The position numbers and the translations under genes are program-made. A stretch of DNA of 64,000 bases from an uncultured Methanomicrobiales archaeon (GTDB taxonomy: Archaea; Halobacteriota; Methanomicrobia; Methanomicrobiales; Methanospirillaceae): NCBI GenBank assembly GCA_903832665.1, contig CAILCG010000016.1, positions 62,001 to 126,000 of the forward strand. The letters run 5' to 3'. The notes under the pieces are model-generated. The model was not told the origin of the DNA. It searched no databases and saw only the letters and a list, made by a program, of their open reading frames with translations. Shown in pieces: positions 26,660-40,479 of this stretch (positions within the stretch are counted from its first letter, which is position 1; each line of letters starts with the position of its first letter).

Positions 26660-27940
26660 TTAAAAAAATGGGGCAGTGAAATTCACACCAATTTTTTGAG
26701 AAAGGGAACTGATCGCATGCATAATGGGATCAACGATCTGGGAAAAAATGGCCGTGACCGGAGATATACCAGATGAGGGGTCCACAATCCCCGTCGGGAC
26801 TGGTTTAACAGGAGTAACATTCACGAGAGTAATTGGGATCAATGAAGCAGCTGGTGTAACCATGTTGATTTGCACAAGTCCTTCAGAAGAGGTATTTTCC
26901 CGATAAAACCCTACGTACCCCTGTGTTGCAAACCAGACCCGGTTTTCTGCATCAACATTTACGGTTTTCACAATGTCTGAAGTACCAATGCCTTCAAAAC
27001 GGGAAAGATGCCGGTATATCTCACCATCGCGCCAGATATATATCCCGTCATCGGTAGCAATATTGAGGCTCCCGTCCGATCCCGCAGCAATATCATTTAT
27101 GGTAATCTGTTTCTGCGTCAGATCACCCGTTTTCAGTATATCCTCAAAACCGGATACAGTGTCGAAATGAATGATCGTACTCGGGTTAAAGAAATAAACC
27201 CCGCCTAACGGGTCCCGTTTTACGTGCTGCATCTGTCCCTGGGGCGTATCTGTTCCTGCCAGGAGTTCGAACGAAACCGGGTCTTCCGGAGAGCGAACTA
27301 TCCATAACCCTTCATTTTCTGTGGCAATCACCAGTGAATTGCTTGCAGTATCAAGGGTCATGCTGTTTACCTCATAGAAACCCGGCCCATTTTTGATCAT
27401 TGGCTGAAACCATGTCCATTCGCCATTGCGGAACCGATGAATCCTGGAATGACCGGTCGATATCCACATATCATCATTCCAGCGCTGGAGATCATGGATT
27501 CGTGTTTCCTTGAGAAGCTGCTGATCGCGGATTACCTGGTAATAGACCCCGTTATAGATCTGGATGCCTCCGGAATACCCGATCCAGAGATTTCCCCGGT
27601 GATCGAATTCGATAGCGGTAACAAAATCATCCATCAGCCCTTGGGAAATATTGTCCCGGTTGATGTGACGCGTGTTCCAGGATCCATTGAAGGTAGATAA
27701 ACCGAATGAAGTTGCAAAGAGAACTTCACCACCCGGACCATTAATCTGGTCCATAATCTGGTCGGAATGGATCTGACTGCTGGTGGGAATGAAGAGCTCT
27801 ATTGTATAAGACAGTGTCTGAACAGCGGGAGACAACTCACCGGTAAAAGAAGTGTCATTTTGCAGGAGTGCACTGACCGGAGAAAAAATGAGTAATGAGA
27901 TGACTATAACAGCGATTTCATAACTCGCTCGTGACGCCAT
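26660..27940 (-). CDS. Secreted or membrane-attached sensor β-propeller
   Basis: 426 aa. After a signal-anchor segment (VIVISLLIFSPVSALL) come repeats of the two-component-regulator propeller type (GNLWIGYSGGIQIYNG, DDMWISTGHSRIHRF, GSLNIATDDGIYIWR, NRVWFATQGYVGFY), which form a sensory β-propeller. There is no kinase domain, and the last 70 residues are Pro/Val-rich with an amphipathic end. The start codon at 27940 lies inside cheD, so it is translationally coupled to the chemotaxis genes, suggesting a sensing partner. An upstream in-frame ATG at 27970 is less likely. Confidence 0.7.
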   Translation of the reverse strand: MASRASYEIAVIVISLLIFSPVSALLQNDTSFTGELSPAVQTLSYTIELFIPTSSQIHSDQIMDQINGPGGEVLFATSFGLSTFNGSWNTRHINRDNISQGLMDDFVTAIEFDHRGNLWIGYSGGIQIYNGVYYQVIRDQQLLKETRIHDLQRWNDDMWISTGHSRIHRFRNGEWTWFQPMIKNGPGFYEVNSMTLDTASNSLVIATENEGLWIVRSPEDPVSFELLAGTDTPQGQMQHVKRDPLGGVYFFNPSTIIHFDTVSGFEDILKTGDLTQKQITINDIAAGSDGSLNIATDDGIYIWRDGEIYRHLSRFEGIGTSDIVKTVNVDAENRVWFATQGYVGFYRENTSSEGLVQINMVTPAASLIPITLVNVTPVKPVPTGIVDPSSGISPVTAIFSQIVDPIMHAISSLSQKIGVNFTAPFF

Positions 27941-28409
27941 CTGCTCTCCGGATCGAGATCTTTCCACCATTGGCGGGAAGGAATGTGACCGTTCGCCCCA
28001 CCTTGCCTCCTACATCCTCGGCAGATAACTTGATTCCCTGCTCTTTTAAAATTGCACGGACTTTTTCTGTGTTGCGTTCACCAATATTGAGGTTCGTGCC
28101 GAAATACTCAAACATACATGCCCCCCCGGCCATTTTTGCAATAAGGGAGCATTTTCCACTACCGAGCTTCTCCAGTTCACTCAATATCAGGGGGATGGCC
28201 GTATCTGCATATTTACCCGAGCGATCCGTTCTTCCGCCACTATCGGGCAACATGATGTGCACCATTGCACCGGTTTTTTTCTGCGAATCATACAAGGTGA
28301 GTCCAATACAGGAGCCCAGCCCGATAGTCATAATGGGAAACGAACCAACCCGGTATTCACCAATACCAATCATCGCCGGTTGTAGGGTCGGAGAACTTTG
28401 ATCGGCCAT
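27918..28409 (-). CDS. cheD: Chemoreceptor glutamine deamidase CheD
   Basis: Deamidates receptor glutamines and binds CheC to tune adaptation. The 163-aa protein has the catalytic Cys in GLGSCIGLTLYD and His in VHIMLPDS, plus GGACMFEYFG. It follows cheC with a 14-nt gap and is overlapped by the propeller gene. No methyl-accepting receptor gene is in the window. Confidence 0.93.
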   Translation of the reverse strand: MADQSSPTLQPAMIGIGEYRVGSFPIMTIGLGSCIGLTLYDSQKKTGAMVHIMLPDSGGRTDRSGKYADTAIPLILSELEKLGSGKCSLIAKMAGGACMFEYFGTNLNIGERNTEKVRAILKEQGIKLSAEDVGGKVGRTVTFLPANGGKISIRRADGVTSEL

Positions 28410-28423
28410 TATATTCCCAGATA

Positions 28424-29044
28424 TCAGGTTCCGTTCATCATCGCTTCTAGAAGTTCGGTAATTCTTTTGAGCGTACTTAATTCCGGGAGCATGATAATAT
28501 CACTGTCAATCTTGTGCTCCTCACAGATAAGTTCTGTTGAGAAGAGCAGGACTTCGTCAACTTCCTCACCCAGCTGGGCGATGAGTGATTCCATTGCTGC
28601 ATGCGCCATGTCAATACTGAGTGCCGGGGGAGAAGGGAGCATGATAAATCCGAGAAGTTCCGCGGTCGCATCCAGGAACGCAGAGACCATGATGTTACCC
28701 ACTTCAAGGAGAGCACTCTGGTCCATCTCATTTAATTCACGATCCGTATCTGTCATGCCCAGCATGGTATTGGTCAGGCGTATCGCAGATTCACGGGTGA
28801 TGTAAAAAATAATATATCCGCCGTGCTGGATCTCGCCCTGTAGTTCAAAAACGACCATTGCGGCTGATTCATCACCGATATGATTTCCCAGTTCGGCCAG
28901 GTCAATAGATTTTATCGCCGGGACACTCATCGAAACGGAACTCGAAAGCATCTGGGACAGAGTCGTTGCTGCATGAGCAGCTCCGATATTTCCAAGCTCC
29001 TGAATCGCGTCTGCCTGTACTGCTGATAATTTCATTTCATTCAC
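28424..29044 (-). CDS. cheC: CheY-P phosphatase CheC
   Basis: 206-aa CheC/CheX-family protein that dephosphorylates CheY-P and is stimulated by CheD. Two phosphatase motifs are visible: the first D/S-x3-E-x2-N in QADAIQELGNIGAAHA and the second in SALLEVGNIMVSAFLD. The frame opens with GTG at 29044, immediately after the TAG of the cheA 3' part, and an ATG follows three codons later. Strong coupling to cheA and cheD is evident. Confidence 0.93.
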   Translation of the reverse strand: MNEMKLSAVQADAIQELGNIGAAHAATTLSQMLSSSVSMSVPAIKSIDLAELGNHIGDESAAMVVFELQGEIQHGGYIIFYITRESAIRLTNTMLGMTDTDRELNEMDQSALLEVGNIMVSAFLDATAELLGFIMLPSPPALSIDMAHAAMESLIAQLGEEVDEVLLFSTELICEEHKIDSDIIMLPELSTLKRITELLEAMMNGT

Positions 29045-29428
29045 CTACACCATGGTATTTACATCGAGCACGGGAACCACTTCACCATCGCCAAGTATCG
29101 TAATCCCGCTGATTCCCCGGGTGTTACCGATAATACTGCTGAGTAGTTTTACTACAACTTCCTGCTTCCCTTCCACGATATCAACGGCAATGCAGCACTT
29201 TCGCTTCAGGTACTGCACAACAATAAGGATATCCCGCTCATCTGACCTTCCCATCATATCGTCAAGCATGAAGATCTCCAGCACTTCATCCCGCAGGAGA
29301 ATTGCATCGCTTTTTCCAATCCGGTGGGTTGAACCCGTCTTGTAATCCGCCACCTCAACAATACTGCTGATCGGAATGGCGAGCCTCCTCTTGTTGATCC
29401 TCACGATCATGACATCCACAATGGCCAT
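29045..29428 (-). CDS. cheA: CheA C-terminal regulatory (P5) domain, split off by a frameshift
   Basis: 127 aa that read as the CheW-like P5 domain of CheA rather than free CheW: it begins MAIVDVMIVRINKRRLAIP, which normally follows the LLLPPT end of the kinase domain, and ends GISGITILGDGEVVPVLDV, the typical CheA terminus. It overlaps the upstream cheA frame by 22 nt in another frame. One extra C in the C6 run at about 29430-29435 would join both. It ends with TAG, followed directly by cheC. Whether it is translated separately is unknown. Confidence 0.75.
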   Translation of the reverse strand: MAIVDVMIVRINKRRLAIPISSIVEVADYKTGSTHRIGKSDAILLRDEVLEIFMLDDMMGRSDERDILIVVQYLKRKCCIAVDIVEGKQEVVVKLLSSIIGNTRGISGITILGDGEVVPVLDVNTMV

Positions 29429-31008
29429 CGTGGGGGGAGTAATAATTCGAAACGGCTCCCTTTTCCGGGGGTTGTTTCGACCCGGATAGAGCCTTTTAAG
29501 GATTCAATGGATCTCCTGACCACATCGAGCCCGACTCCTCTTCCACTGATATCGGAGATCTTGTCAGCGGTCGAGAATCCCGGAAGGAACAGGATTTCGA
29601 CAGCCTGTTCAGTGGTCATTGTTCTGGCATCTTCCGGAGTTACGAGCCCTTTTTCGATTGCCTTCGACTTTACTTTCTCGACATTGATGCCGCCGCCATC
29701 ATCAATCAATTCGATGATGACATTATCGCGGTCCCGGTGAGCGGAAAGTTTGACAAAACCTTTACGGGGTTTACCCGCTTTTTCCCTGACATCGGGAGAT
29801 TCAATCCCATGATTAACCGCATTACGAATCAAGTGAAGAAGCGGGTCATTGAGCCCGTCCATGACACTTCGATCCAGTTCCGTCTCTCCGCCTTCAATAA
29901 CAAATTCCACTTCCTTCCCATCGTACTGGGCAACATCCCGGACAACCCGTGGAAGGCGATTGAAGATATGATTGAGAGGAATCATACGGATATTCATCAT
30001 CAGGTTCTGGAGATCGGATACGGAACGATCCACAGTGCTGATTGCTTCATCAAGCTCCTTGATCTTGTTCTGTTCAGCGATCTGCTTGAGCCTGCCGCGA
30101 TTTATGACCAGAGCTTCGACAAGGTTCATGATATGATCAAGCTGGGTGATATCCACCCGGAGATTTTTGATCTCCCGGGTCTTGTCCTGTGCAGCGGCAG
30201 CTGCAGCCTGCTGTTTTTTATCAGATTCGGCAGGAGTTGTCTCATCAGAGACTTTTGGGGAAGAGAGCGGCTCTGTCTTTCCTGCGATCGCGACTTCGAC
30301 CGATGCGATATCTGTGCCGGTTGCAGCATTTTTCAGGGCATCGTCACCGACATCACTGGCGATCTTCAATACCAGAGAACCATCGAATTTGCCCTCATCG
30401 ATATCATCGCGTGACGGGTTTATGCAAAGGATCGTTCCCAGCGATTCGAGATTGCCGATGGCCAGCAACGCCCGGATATCCTTCATCATGCAGTCGTCTG
30501 CAACCTTGATTTTTATGACATACCGGGGGCGATCGGTTTCATCAATAACTTCTGCAACTTTTTCAGCAGGGCCTTTGTTCTGTGAGGCCGGGGTTTTGGC
30601 ACCTTCGCTTTTCGGCGTGCCGGCACCGGCAGTGATCCATTGTTTTAAGGCTTTTACCTGTTCATCCGGATTGACGGATAAAGAATCTCCCCCGCCTTCC
30701 ACGTCATCCAGCATCAACTCGATAACATCGGAGCATGCCAGCAGCAGGTTATTGAGATCGGCGGTGATCACGGCACTTCCGCTGCGAATCATCTGGAATA
30801 CATCTTCCATCGTATGGCAGAGCCGCTCCATCTCCATAAATCCCATGGATGCCGAGGCGCCTTTGAGCGTATGGATGGACCGGAATATCTCATCAATAGC
30901 AGTCTGGCTCCCTCCCTTCTCCAGGATCAGCATATTCCGTACGAGATTCTCGTGATTCTCCCGGGATTCTGCAACGAAAAGAGAACGGTATGCTTCAAAC
31001 TCAGACAT
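29407..31008 (-). CDS. cheA: Chemotaxis histidine kinase CheA, P1-P4 part, frameshifted before P5
   Basis: 533 codons covering the HPt domain (phosphorylated His in IHTLKGASASMG), P2 CheY-binding domain (about residues 175-270), P3 dimerisation helices and the P4 ATPase (HLIRNAVNHG, DDGGGI, GRGVGLDVV). The frame ends abnormally in LLLPPRWPLWMS because of a likely -1 slip in a run of six C. The rest of CheA is in the overlapping frame at 29045-29428. The ATG at 31008 gives MSEFEAYRSLF and overlaps the end of cheB. Without P5 the kinase could not couple to receptors through CheW. Confidence 0.85.
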   Translation of the reverse strand: MSEFEAYRSLFVAESRENHENLVRNMLILEKGGSQTAIDEIFRSIHTLKGASASMGFMEMERLCHTMEDVFQMIRSGSAVITADLNNLLLACSDVIELMLDDVEGGGDSLSVNPDEQVKALKQWITAGAGTPKSEGAKTPASQNKGPAEKVAEVIDETDRPRYVIKIKVADDCMMKDIRALLAIGNLESLGTILCINPSRDDIDEGKFDGSLVLKIASDVGDDALKNAATGTDIASVEVAIAGKTEPLSSPKVSDETTPAESDKKQQAAAAAAQDKTREIKNLRVDITQLDHIMNLVEALVINRGRLKQIAEQNKIKELDEAISTVDRSVSDLQNLMMNIRMIPLNHIFNRLPRVVRDVAQYDGKEVEFVIEGGETELDRSVMDGLNDPLLHLIRNAVNHGIESPDVREKAGKPRKGFVKLSAHRDRDNVIIELIDDGGGINVEKVKSKAIEKGLVTPEDARTMTTEQAVEILFLPGFSTADKISDISGRGVGLDVVRRSIESLKGSIRVETTPGKGSRFELLLPPRWPLWMS

Positions 31009-31873
31009 CGATGCCCTCCATCTCCCGAACTGCCTTCTCAATTTCCTTCGCGAGCTTTTTTAATGGAACAATTTTGTGGGCGGCATCATACTTGATGACG
31101 GATCGTGGCATTCCGTAGACCAAGCAGTCTTTCTCATCACAGACAAGATTTGTTCCGCCGGCCTGTTTTATCACCAGCGCCCCTGCACCGGCATCATTTC
31201 CCATTCCGCTCAGTGTCACAGAGACGATATTTTTCCCATAAACCGTAACTGCGGATTCGAATGTCTTATCCACCGCGGGTTTTACCCCATGAAGTGAAGG
31301 GGAATTCGTGTGTATGATCTTCCCGATTTTTTTATTGTGCTCCGATAATGCACCGCTGACAACCGTATGTACGCCGGCTTTTGAGAGAAGGATCCTTCCT
31401 ATAAGGATTGAATCACCGGTCTCAGTCTCTTTGACCGGGATGGGCGAAATCCGGTTGAAACGTTCAGCAAGAGGTGCAGTAAAACCCGGTGGCATATGCT
31501 GGGTAACGATCACGCCAGCCGGAAGATCCGCGGGGAGCTCGGCGAGAAGGGTGTCGAGCATGAGCGGACCTCCCGCTGAAGACCCGATGAGGACAACCCT
31601 GTCGGCAGATTTGGCGGATAAGGTTTCTTTTCTGGTCACTGCCTTTACCGGCAGTGTCATGAGATGTTTGACGGAATTTATCAGTTCCTGCCCAATCTCC
31701 CGCACATGAGGGATATCCTTTGGCTTGAGCATAAAATCATCTGCCCCGAGCCGTATTGCCTGGTGAGTCAGGTCCGCATCCTTGGTGGTGAGGGTGCTCA
31801 GCATCAGGATCTTGGGACGTTTGGATTGTTTCTGGAGTTCTTTTAAGACTTCAATTCCATTCATCACCGGCAT
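31001..31873 (-). CDS. cheB: N-terminally truncated protein-glutamate methylesterase CheB
   Basis: The methylesterase domain is complete, with catalytic Ser in GSSAGGP, His in TQHMPPGFT and Asp in GMGNDAGA. The receiver domain is cut. Coding similarity begins at EKIKSLSPDL and includes the phosphoacceptor LDIEMP, but there is a stop at 31934-31936 and no start codon before MPVMNG at 31873. About 35-40 residues are missing, replaced by the end of the arlG-type gene, which stops at 31929. Any product from the ATG at 31873 lacks the phosphorylation site. It overlaps cheA by 8 nt. Confidence 0.8.
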   Translation of the reverse strand: MPVMNGIEVLKELQKQSKRPKILMLSTLTTKDADLTHQAIRLGADDFMLKPKDIPHVREIGQELINSVKHLMTLPVKAVTRKETLSAKSADRVVLIGSSAGGPLMLDTLLAELPADLPAGVIVTQHMPPGFTAPLAERFNRISPIPVKETETGDSILIGRILLSKAGVHTVVSGALSEHNKKIGKIIHTNSPSLHGVKPAVDKTFESAVTVYGKNIVSVTLSGMGNDAGAGALVIKQAGGTNLVCDEKDCLVYGMPRSVIKYDAAHKIVPLKKLAKEIEKAVREMEGIDV

Positions 31874-31928
31874 TTCAATATCGAGGGTGATGAGGTCCGG
31901 AGAGAGGCTTTTGATCTTTTCTGGTGCT

Positions 31929-32393
31929 TCAGCTCACGTTGAATTCAATCGAGCGCCATATGCCATCCGGAAGAATAAACTGGAAATATACCAGGTTGCC
32001 TTTTGCCGGCATGGAGGGCGGTCTAACGGAAATCTGCAGGGTCTCTCCCGGGTCCCAGTCGTTGTTCCCGTTGAGATCAAAAATAGTAAACGTCCAGTCG
32101 GATACTCGGCCATAATTATTTGAAGGACCGCAGAAGACATCGGAACGCAAAATATCCGAATTGGGAATTCTCTGGCTTCCGATATTTTTCATCCAGACAT
32201 TTGCCGTGGTACTGTTGGCAAAGGTTGTGACAATCTTGAAATCCGTACGCAATCGCTGATCCGATTCATGCGTAGCAGACTGGAAAGTCCCGGCCATGGT
32301 ATACACTACCGGAAAAACCGCGTTGATCAATACTCCTGCAGCAATCACTGCAGTAATCAAAAACATGGCGGTGGTGAACGTCTCGGCAGACAT
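31929..32393 (-). CDS. Archaellum stator-type protein, ArlG/FlaG family
   Basis: 154 aa: one N-terminal membrane helix (MFLITAVIAAGVLINAVFPVV, residues 10-30) followed by an extracytoplasmic β-sandwich domain (KIVTTFANSTTANVWMKNIG, VYFQFILPDG). This layout is that of the ArlF/ArlG pair that anchors the archaellum to the S-layer. Similarity favours ArlG. It starts 3 nt after the arlCDE-type gene ends. The expected arlF, arlH, arlI and arlJ do not follow. Instead the truncated cheB begins at the same place. Confidence 0.75.
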   Translation of the reverse strand: MSAETFTTAMFLITAVIAAGVLINAVFPVVYTMAGTFQSATHESDQRLRTDFKIVTTFANSTTANVWMKNIGSQRIPNSDILRSDVFCGPSNNYGRVSDWTFTIFDLNGNNDWDPGETLQISVRPPSMPAKGNLVYFQFILPDGIWRSIEFNVS

Positions 32394-32396
32394 GGA

Positions 32397-33362
32397 TCAT
32401 ATCCTGTCGGGAAGGTTCATCCAGTCATCATCGTTTTCTTTACTCTTGGAAGGGGAGGATCGTTCTCTCATTGAGACTCCGGACACGTCGATCCTTCCTT
32501 CTCCGGATTTTTCCTTCTGGGGAGCATCCTGCTGGCGATGCTCCATCATCACTTCAATCATATCCCGGTCAAGGGATGTATCGGTGGGGGCTAATATGCG
32601 GTTCAATGAGTAGAGTTCGGCAACAAACTCATCCGGCCCTACCTCATGTTCCTCACCGAGATTTGCCGGCATAAGGCGGGAGATCTCCCGGATCTCATCG
32701 CAGGAATCCTTGGTGATGTATCCCATCGCCTGGTAAGAGCCCAGTATTATCTCAAGCCGGTCATGCCCGTACTTCTTCACGGCCTGGTGGGTCCATTTGA
32801 AAAGCTTATACACTTTCTGGAGTCTAAGTTTCTCGTTTAATGGGACTGCCGGCTGCACTGCAGTTTTGGCCGGCTGGCTGACCTGTTGACTTGCGAGCGG
32901 GTTTACCAGTGGTGGAACCAGATTCTGGTTTCTTAACGCAGCAAGCATCTGCTCATCCAGCAGTTTTCGTTCTGCATCGTATTGCGTCACTGGTGCCGAA
33001 GGTTTTTCTGCTTCCTTCGGGTGATCTGCCTTGGTTTTCTCTGCTTCATCCTTTGACTTGGTTGCATCGATCTGCGATTCGCGGGCATCAAGGGCTGCTT
33101 CCCGGGCTTCAAGTGCAGATCGTTTTGCATCGCCGGCATCAGTATCAGCTGACGAGGCATTCGGACCCGATCCTCCGGGCATTGCCGTGAGGGTAAAAGG
33201 GTTTTCCAGTTCGTTCATCCGTTCGCGGATGTCCATGAGGAGACGTTTTATGGAGGTTTTGATCAGGTCGACTTCCCGCTCAAGGTTCTGCAGTTTAACC
33301 TCGGGGTCATCCTCTGATGCGGCAGTGATGATATGGTCTACCTGGGACTGATTAACCGCCAT
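32397..33362 (-). CDS. Archaellum cytoplasmic-ring protein, ArlC/D/E-type
   Basis: 321 aa. The conserved FlaD/E domain lies at about residues 175-265 (RLQKVYKLFKWTHQAVKKYG, LEIILGSYQAMGYIT, EIREISRLMP). The N-terminal part is a charged coiled coil (EREVDLIKTSIKRLL, ALEAREAALDARESQ) and the tail is Ser/Lys-rich. Such proteins form the cytosolic ring that links CheF/CheY signals to the motor. The ATG at 33362 is preferred over an upstream extension. 33363-33551 contains a TATA-like ATAAATATTCG on this strand and no gene. Confidence 0.8.
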   Translation of the reverse strand: MAVNQSQVDHIITAASEDDPEVKLQNLEREVDLIKTSIKRLLMDIRERMNELENPFTLTAMPGGSGPNASSADTDAGDAKRSALEAREAALDARESQIDATKSKDEAEKTKADHPKEAEKPSAPVTQYDAERKLLDEQMLAALRNQNLVPPLVNPLASQQVSQPAKTAVQPAVPLNEKLRLQKVYKLFKWTHQAVKKYGHDRLEIILGSYQAMGYITKDSCDEIREISRLMPANLGEEHEVGPDEFVAELYSLNRILAPTDTSLDRDMIEVMMEHRQQDAPQKEKSGEGRIDVSGVSMRERSSPSKSKENDDDWMNLPDRI

Positions 33363-33551
33363 AATGTATCTATGCGATACATCGCATTTGTGCTTAATAA
33401 ATATTCGTATACCCAAATACCGAGAAATCGGGACGGGGGTTTAATTTTGGGAATATTGCGGGATTTTGCAGGCTACTTGGCGGAAGAAGGGGTCGGGCAA
33501 AAAGAAAAGATAGTCTTTCTGTTTGTGAAAGAGGGAAGATCGAAAGAAAAA

Positions 33552-39893: not shown

Positions 39894-40479
39894 ATGGAAT
39901 TCAAAGAAATTGTCATGCAGAGATATGCAACAAAAGAATTTGACAGCAGGATGATCGATGATTCAATACTCTATGCACTGCTGGACCTGATCCGCTTTGC
40001 CCCGTCCGCATTCAATCTCCAGCCATGGAAGATCAAGGTCGTATCCGCAAGCCGGATCAAGAAGAACCTGCGTCCCTATTCCAATGACCAGCCCCAGGTC
40101 AGCACCTGCTCGTATTCTGTGCAAACACGGAACTTGAGCAGCTGGTCGAGCGGGTGAGCGAGGGACTGAAAGGATCAGGCATGCCCCCCGCATCCATTGC
40201 ACAATACACGGAGATGATGAAGGGATATATCCGCTCAGCCCTGAACAGAAACTCGCATTTGCCCGGGAACAGTGCTATATCGCGCTGGGCAATGCAGTGA
40301 ATGGTGCCAAATCGCTTGGCATCGACTCATGCCCGATGGGGGGGTTTGATCCTGCGGGGTATGCAGAGATCCTGTTTCTACCCGAAGAATATATTCCGGT
40401 CGTGGTCTGTGCCATCGGGTATGCCGCGGACACGCCCCTGCCCAAATGGCGGCTGCCCCGGGAAGAAGTCTTCTTTTAA
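39894..40479 (+). pseudogene. Nitroreductase family pseudogene with two frameshifts
   Basis: NAD(P)H-dependent FMN enzyme fragment series. Frame 1 gives MEFKEIVMQRYATKEFD and RFAPSAFNLQPWKI. From about 40105 the homologous reading continues in another frame (LLVFCANTELEQLVERV, SGMPPASIAQYTEMMKGY). From about 40230 it moves to a third frame (SPEQKLAFAREQCYIALGN, GIDSCPMGGFDPAGY, WRLPREEVFF). Two indels within 130 nt make a functional product unlikely unless they are sequence errors. Confidence 0.85.

Follow-up and report, generated by a model that had tools for sequence, protein, structure and literature searches.

In Methanoregula and other Methanomicrobiales, the arl-che cluster of four relatives (G007, G034, G029, and G018) contains arlF-arlH-arlI-arlJ, a 433-aa gene, cheF, and cheY, together with full-length cheB and cheA. 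With neither ArlI nor ArlJ, no archaellum is assembled or rotated. Loss of motility genes is common. In the Methanotrichales the loss of the archaellum is old and extends across the whole order, and the authors link it to the gain of a sheath (PMC11576556), and within Methanoregula itself “Ca. Methanoregula pelomyxae” has been described as an endosymbiont of the amoeba Pelomyxa schiedti (PMC10579272). The genome under study, G000, shares archaellum loss with the Methanotrichales and has the same flanking gene order as the four relatives, whereas the genes that these relatives keep are deleted or broken.

The assembly of G000, a Methanoregula-type genome, comprises 2.88 Mb in 28 contigs and is 98.8% complete, and the window analyzed is a 64,000-nucleotide stretch of it (C16:62001-126000, forward strand). 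The named close matches of the window arlG were Methanoregula and Methanomicrobiales assemblies. The closest relative was the GL140_5 MAG (G007; contig JANYKQ010000083.1), and both flanks of the locus were read in six relatives (G007, G034, G033, G001, G018, and G029). The gene order on the minus strand, which carries all the cluster features described below, was a 339-aa gene, arlG, cheB, cheA, cheC, and cheD. The conserved 339-aa gene (32397..33416, with a likely start at ATG 33362) occupies the arlC/D/E position and immediately precedes arlG in those relatives that were read; a Pfam and NCBIfam profile search with it gave no match. The arlG-type archaellum stator gene (31929..32393; 154 aa) is intact, has 86% identity to that of G007, and matches Pfam Arch_flagellin at 9.8e-10, with an NCBIfam ArlG match (7e-07) under the family cut-off. 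It is ended by its own TGA at 31929, as in G007, and the cheB frame is open directly past this stop.

The cheB gene (31001..31931) is truncated at its 5′ end, lacking codons 1–37, and the retained part aligns to residues 38–346 of the 346-aa G007 CheB. Its methylesterase domain is complete (PF01339, CheB_methylest, positions 1–174 of 174, E = 1.5e-52), and its receiver domain is halved, the Pfam Response_reg match not starting until profile position 52. The first usable start is ATG 31873, and a protein initiated there would be short of 56 CheB residues, including the phosphorylated Asp54. In relatives, cheA is a single ORF of ~650 aa; here it is split into a 5′ part (29407..31041) with profile matches to the Hpt, P2, dimerisation, and ATPase domains, and a 3′ part (29045..29428) with the CheW-like domain (NCBIfam CheA_Halo positions 539–666). 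The frameshift lies at about 29432-29437, where CCCCCC is one base short of the seven-base stretch (CCCGCCC, CCCACCC, and similar) of five aligned relatives, and at this homopolymer site the frameshift taken alone could be a sequencing error. Both cheC (28424..29044; Pfam CheC) and cheD (27918..28409; Pfam CheD) are intact, with 98% and 89% identity to G007, respectively.

In G007 and G034, 7.4–7.5 kb separate the two ends that meet between arlG and cheB in G000, and the distance is several kb in G033, G001, G018, and G029. The missing block consists of arlF, arlH, arlI, arlJ, the 433-aa gene, a CheF-like gene, cheY, and cheB codons 1–37. NCBIfam matches in the intervening block were 6e-80 for ArlH, 3e-215 for arlI, and 1e-214 for arlJ, the CheF-like gene belonged to PF04283, and the 433-aa gene was assigned to no family. 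DNA comparison with G007 and G034 placed the junction at 31929..31933, where GCTGA is common to the arlG end and cheB codons 37–38; the microhomology is 3–5 nt, since GCTGA is shared in G034 and TGA alone in G007. A search for direct repeats of at least 10 nt within 31700-32400 found none, and with only 3–5 nt common at the junction a repeat-mediated deletion was rejected. The sequence-only reading had correctly noted that the arlG end and the start of the truncated cheB coincide and that cheB is short of its first 35–40 residues. Its proposal that several kb with arlF, arlH, arlI, and arlJ had been lost is borne out by the six relatives, with the 433-aa gene, the CheF-like gene, and cheY to be added to its list.

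Searches of the 2.88 Mb assembly did not locate the block at any other position. When the 7.7 kb G007 region served as DNA query, the hits were confined to its two flanks and one short ATPase match, and at the DNA level this search gave no copy of arlF, arlH, or arlJ. The protein search for ArlI in G000 retrieved only 40%-identical pilus paralogues on contigs C14 and C22; no G000 protein exceeded the cut-off of the ArlI family NF058587, the best (409.8 vs 550 bits) being the C14 pilus paralogue. With G007 ArlJ as query the best match in G000 had E = 0.14, and a protein search for CheF gave no match. ArlI over the family cut-off was present in 25 of the 39 genus genomes, and several of the others were cut by contig ends.

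Damage was also found in filament genes on contigs other than that of the junction. One of the three full-length archaellin genes is intact, as are two chemoreceptor genes in addition to cheC and cheD. The second archaellin of a pair on C17 has TAG at signal-peptide codon 7, a sense codon in relatives, and a third archaellin, on C13, lacks any ATG, GTG, or TTG in the stretch from the upstream stop to the signal peptide, ATA standing at the expected start site. On C22, a pilus-type ATPase gene carries a 4-nt deletion and a pilus platform gene a 1-nt deletion, the latter in a homopolymer (T run), where a sequencing error is possible. Among the platform genes of the C14 pilus-type system, the first has a GAG to TAG change at codon 22 and the second, intact in nine relatives, has a 1-nt deletion. 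Since these lesions lie on other contigs and are partly substitutions, along with short deletions, a faulty join at 31930 cannot explain them. Because TAG accounts for three of the stop lesions, its use as a sense codon was weighed and rejected: TAG ends 11 of 95 genes and therefore acts as a stop in G000, and TGA stops and indels occur among the other lesions.

The background rate of gene damage was estimated over ~0.9 Mb of G000, with intact G007 and G034 genes as reference. Listed stops were excluded when they fell close to a gene start or lay antisense to a gene. About ten or eleven G000 genes were damaged in 191 comparisons (some genes being in both sets), while the reciprocal test of intact G000 genes against the relatives gave 0 frameshifts in 122 (G007) and 63 (G034) genes (p = 0.002, hand-curated counts). 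Eight of the 14 retained filament and chemotaxis genes were damaged against about six of 175 others (p = 2e-7), and six of 14 against five of 175 (p = 2e-5) when the two homopolymer cases were left out; both p-values are rough because the filament loci were picked deliberately, the C13, C14, C17, and C22 regions having been chosen for their filament genes and the counts being hand-curated. An indel-rich assembly as the cause of all frameshifts was rejected, as across ~190 gene comparisons the lesions were concentrated in filament genes. The damaged non-filament genes encode a nitroreductase, an acyltransferase, a SpoIIE-type phosphatase, an unknown protein, a P-type ATPase, and a carboxyltransferase. 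Relative to G007, a nitroreductase-family pseudogene in the window (39894-40476) has 10-nt and 4-nt deletions, a 388-aa gene of no known function (window about 17517) has a TGG to TGA change at codon 30, and a P-type cation ATPase gene (G000:C14 near 157370) is missing ~150 codons.

The remaining arl and che genes showed nonsynonymous/synonymous ratios (omega) of 0.02–0.16 since the split from G007 (parsimony count), similar to those of the G007 branch. Such values mark genes under purifying selection, and on this substitution record the loss of the archaellum is recent.

Taken together, the locus very probably records a real, recent deletion of ~7.4 kb, one of several independent knock-outs of archaellum and chemotaxis genes in a genome in which both other type IV pilus-like systems are damaged as well. 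The deletion most likely arose by microhomology-mediated joining at the 3–5 nt microhomology, and would have taken out the genes for the motor, stator, and assembly of the archaellum, together with the CheF/CheY link and the first part of cheB, in a setting where selection for surface filaments had presumably been relaxed or reversed. Because ArlI and ArlJ are absent, no archaellum would be built or turned, and because CheF and CheY are absent and cheA and cheB broken, no signal would reach a motor. Judged from its lesions, the organism is probably non-swimming and non-chemotactic. The sequence-only reading had likewise held that cheA is broken and the cluster apparently unable to build or steer an archaellum; the C run one base short of five relatives agrees with the former, and the latter, as a predicted phenotype, follows from the disappearance of the sole motor ATPase (ArlI) and platform protein (ArlJ) of the archaellum. 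It had also proposed looking for arlH, arlI, and arlJ elsewhere in the genome, and the searches of G000 turned up no other copy of the block. The loss of motility is ordinary in kind, and the damage is wider than that reading had thought.

That reading had left the choice between a deletion and an assembly join open; unlinked, partly non-indel lesions argue strongly against the join. An assembly or binning artefact would require that a block present in the organism had been bypassed at a false join and was then missing from the bin. G000 is in 28 contigs, and the frameshifts in cheA and one platform gene are homopolymer indels, as such an artefact might produce, but the junction shares only 3–5 bases with no repeat and is located at about 93.9 kb within a 202 kb contig, and the archaellins on two other contigs are disabled by independent substitutions. 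Short-read graph assemblers make no joins on 3–5 shared bases. We regard the artefact as improbable, and a deletion as much likelier than a bad join because the junction is mid-contig and repeat-free and the damage extends to unlinked genes with the same function.

A deletion that is real could nevertheless be one allele of a mixed population, or have arisen in an enrichment culture, with sister cells retaining the full cluster. The omega of about 0.02–0.16 in the flanking genes would suit so young an event, but several different lesions in the same functions all stand in the consensus assembly, which suggests that the lineage has been non-motile for some time and makes such a variant unlikely. 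It is harder still to credit that arlG, a receiver-less CheB, CheC, CheD, a split CheA, and the chemoreceptors are kept for another task, for example as an unregulated methylesterase acting on two chemoreceptors. The intact CheB methylesterase domain, cheC, cheD, and two chemoreceptors, with cheC 98% identical to G007, would fit such streamlining, but the truncated cheB offers no start codon upstream of ATG 31873 and retains only half a receiver, and recency explains the conservation equally well; we consider this highly improbable.

A lifestyle may be suggested, though tentatively: G000 could be an early-stage host-bound lineage (a protist endosymbiont), or one otherwise permanently sessile, that is losing the whole type IV pilus superfamily (archaellum and two pilus systems) together with chemotaxis, and so independently reaching the end state of “Ca. 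Methanoregula pelomyxae”. The latter (G015), like G000, has no ArlI over the cut-off; no ArlG was found in it, it has no C22-type pilus ATPase, and its C14-type ATPase is frameshifted, so that each of the three systems has been lost or broken in both. Other genus members without ArlI (e.g., G030 and G061) keep both pilus ATPases, and it is this difference that makes a host-bound or sessile life plausible. The two genomes differ in stage: archaellum loss in “Ca. Methanoregula pelomyxae” is complete but for one archaellin-like gene, whereas G000 keeps most of the neighboring genes. Against a host-bound life, the G000 genome is not reduced, at 2.88 Mb compared with 1,949,073 bp in a single contig. 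The main text of the paper describing the endosymbiont (PMC10579272) contains no word starting with archaell or pili.

What G000 adds is the breadth and freshness of its filament loss, whose stages can be seen side by side: a deleted motor, archaellins and pilus machines with point lesions, and flanking genes that are still undecayed. If it should prove host-associated, G000 would be an intermediate between free-living and endosymbiotic methanogens, with which it could be tested whether surface filaments rank among the earliest losses.

Other genomes of the comparison contained unusual arl loci of their own. In G003 (L130, G003:C57, 10045-16522), arlC/D/E, arlH, arlI, arlJ, and the 433-aa gene are present without arlF or arlG between them, and a search of that genome for an archaellin found none, a gene loss that is the complement of the one in G000. 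In G032 (L128, G032:C206, 11848-13266), where the cluster is otherwise present, the ArlI gene lacks ~150 codons in frame around the ATP-binding motifs, possibly an independent archaellum lesion or an assembly error, and the ArlI of G025 (L129, G025:C7, 487-2224) is spread across several frames, as in a pseudogene or a poor assembly. G001 (L051, G001:C235, 5759-13049) carries a second, partial tandem copy of arlH-arlI-arlJ, with two full ArlI genes.
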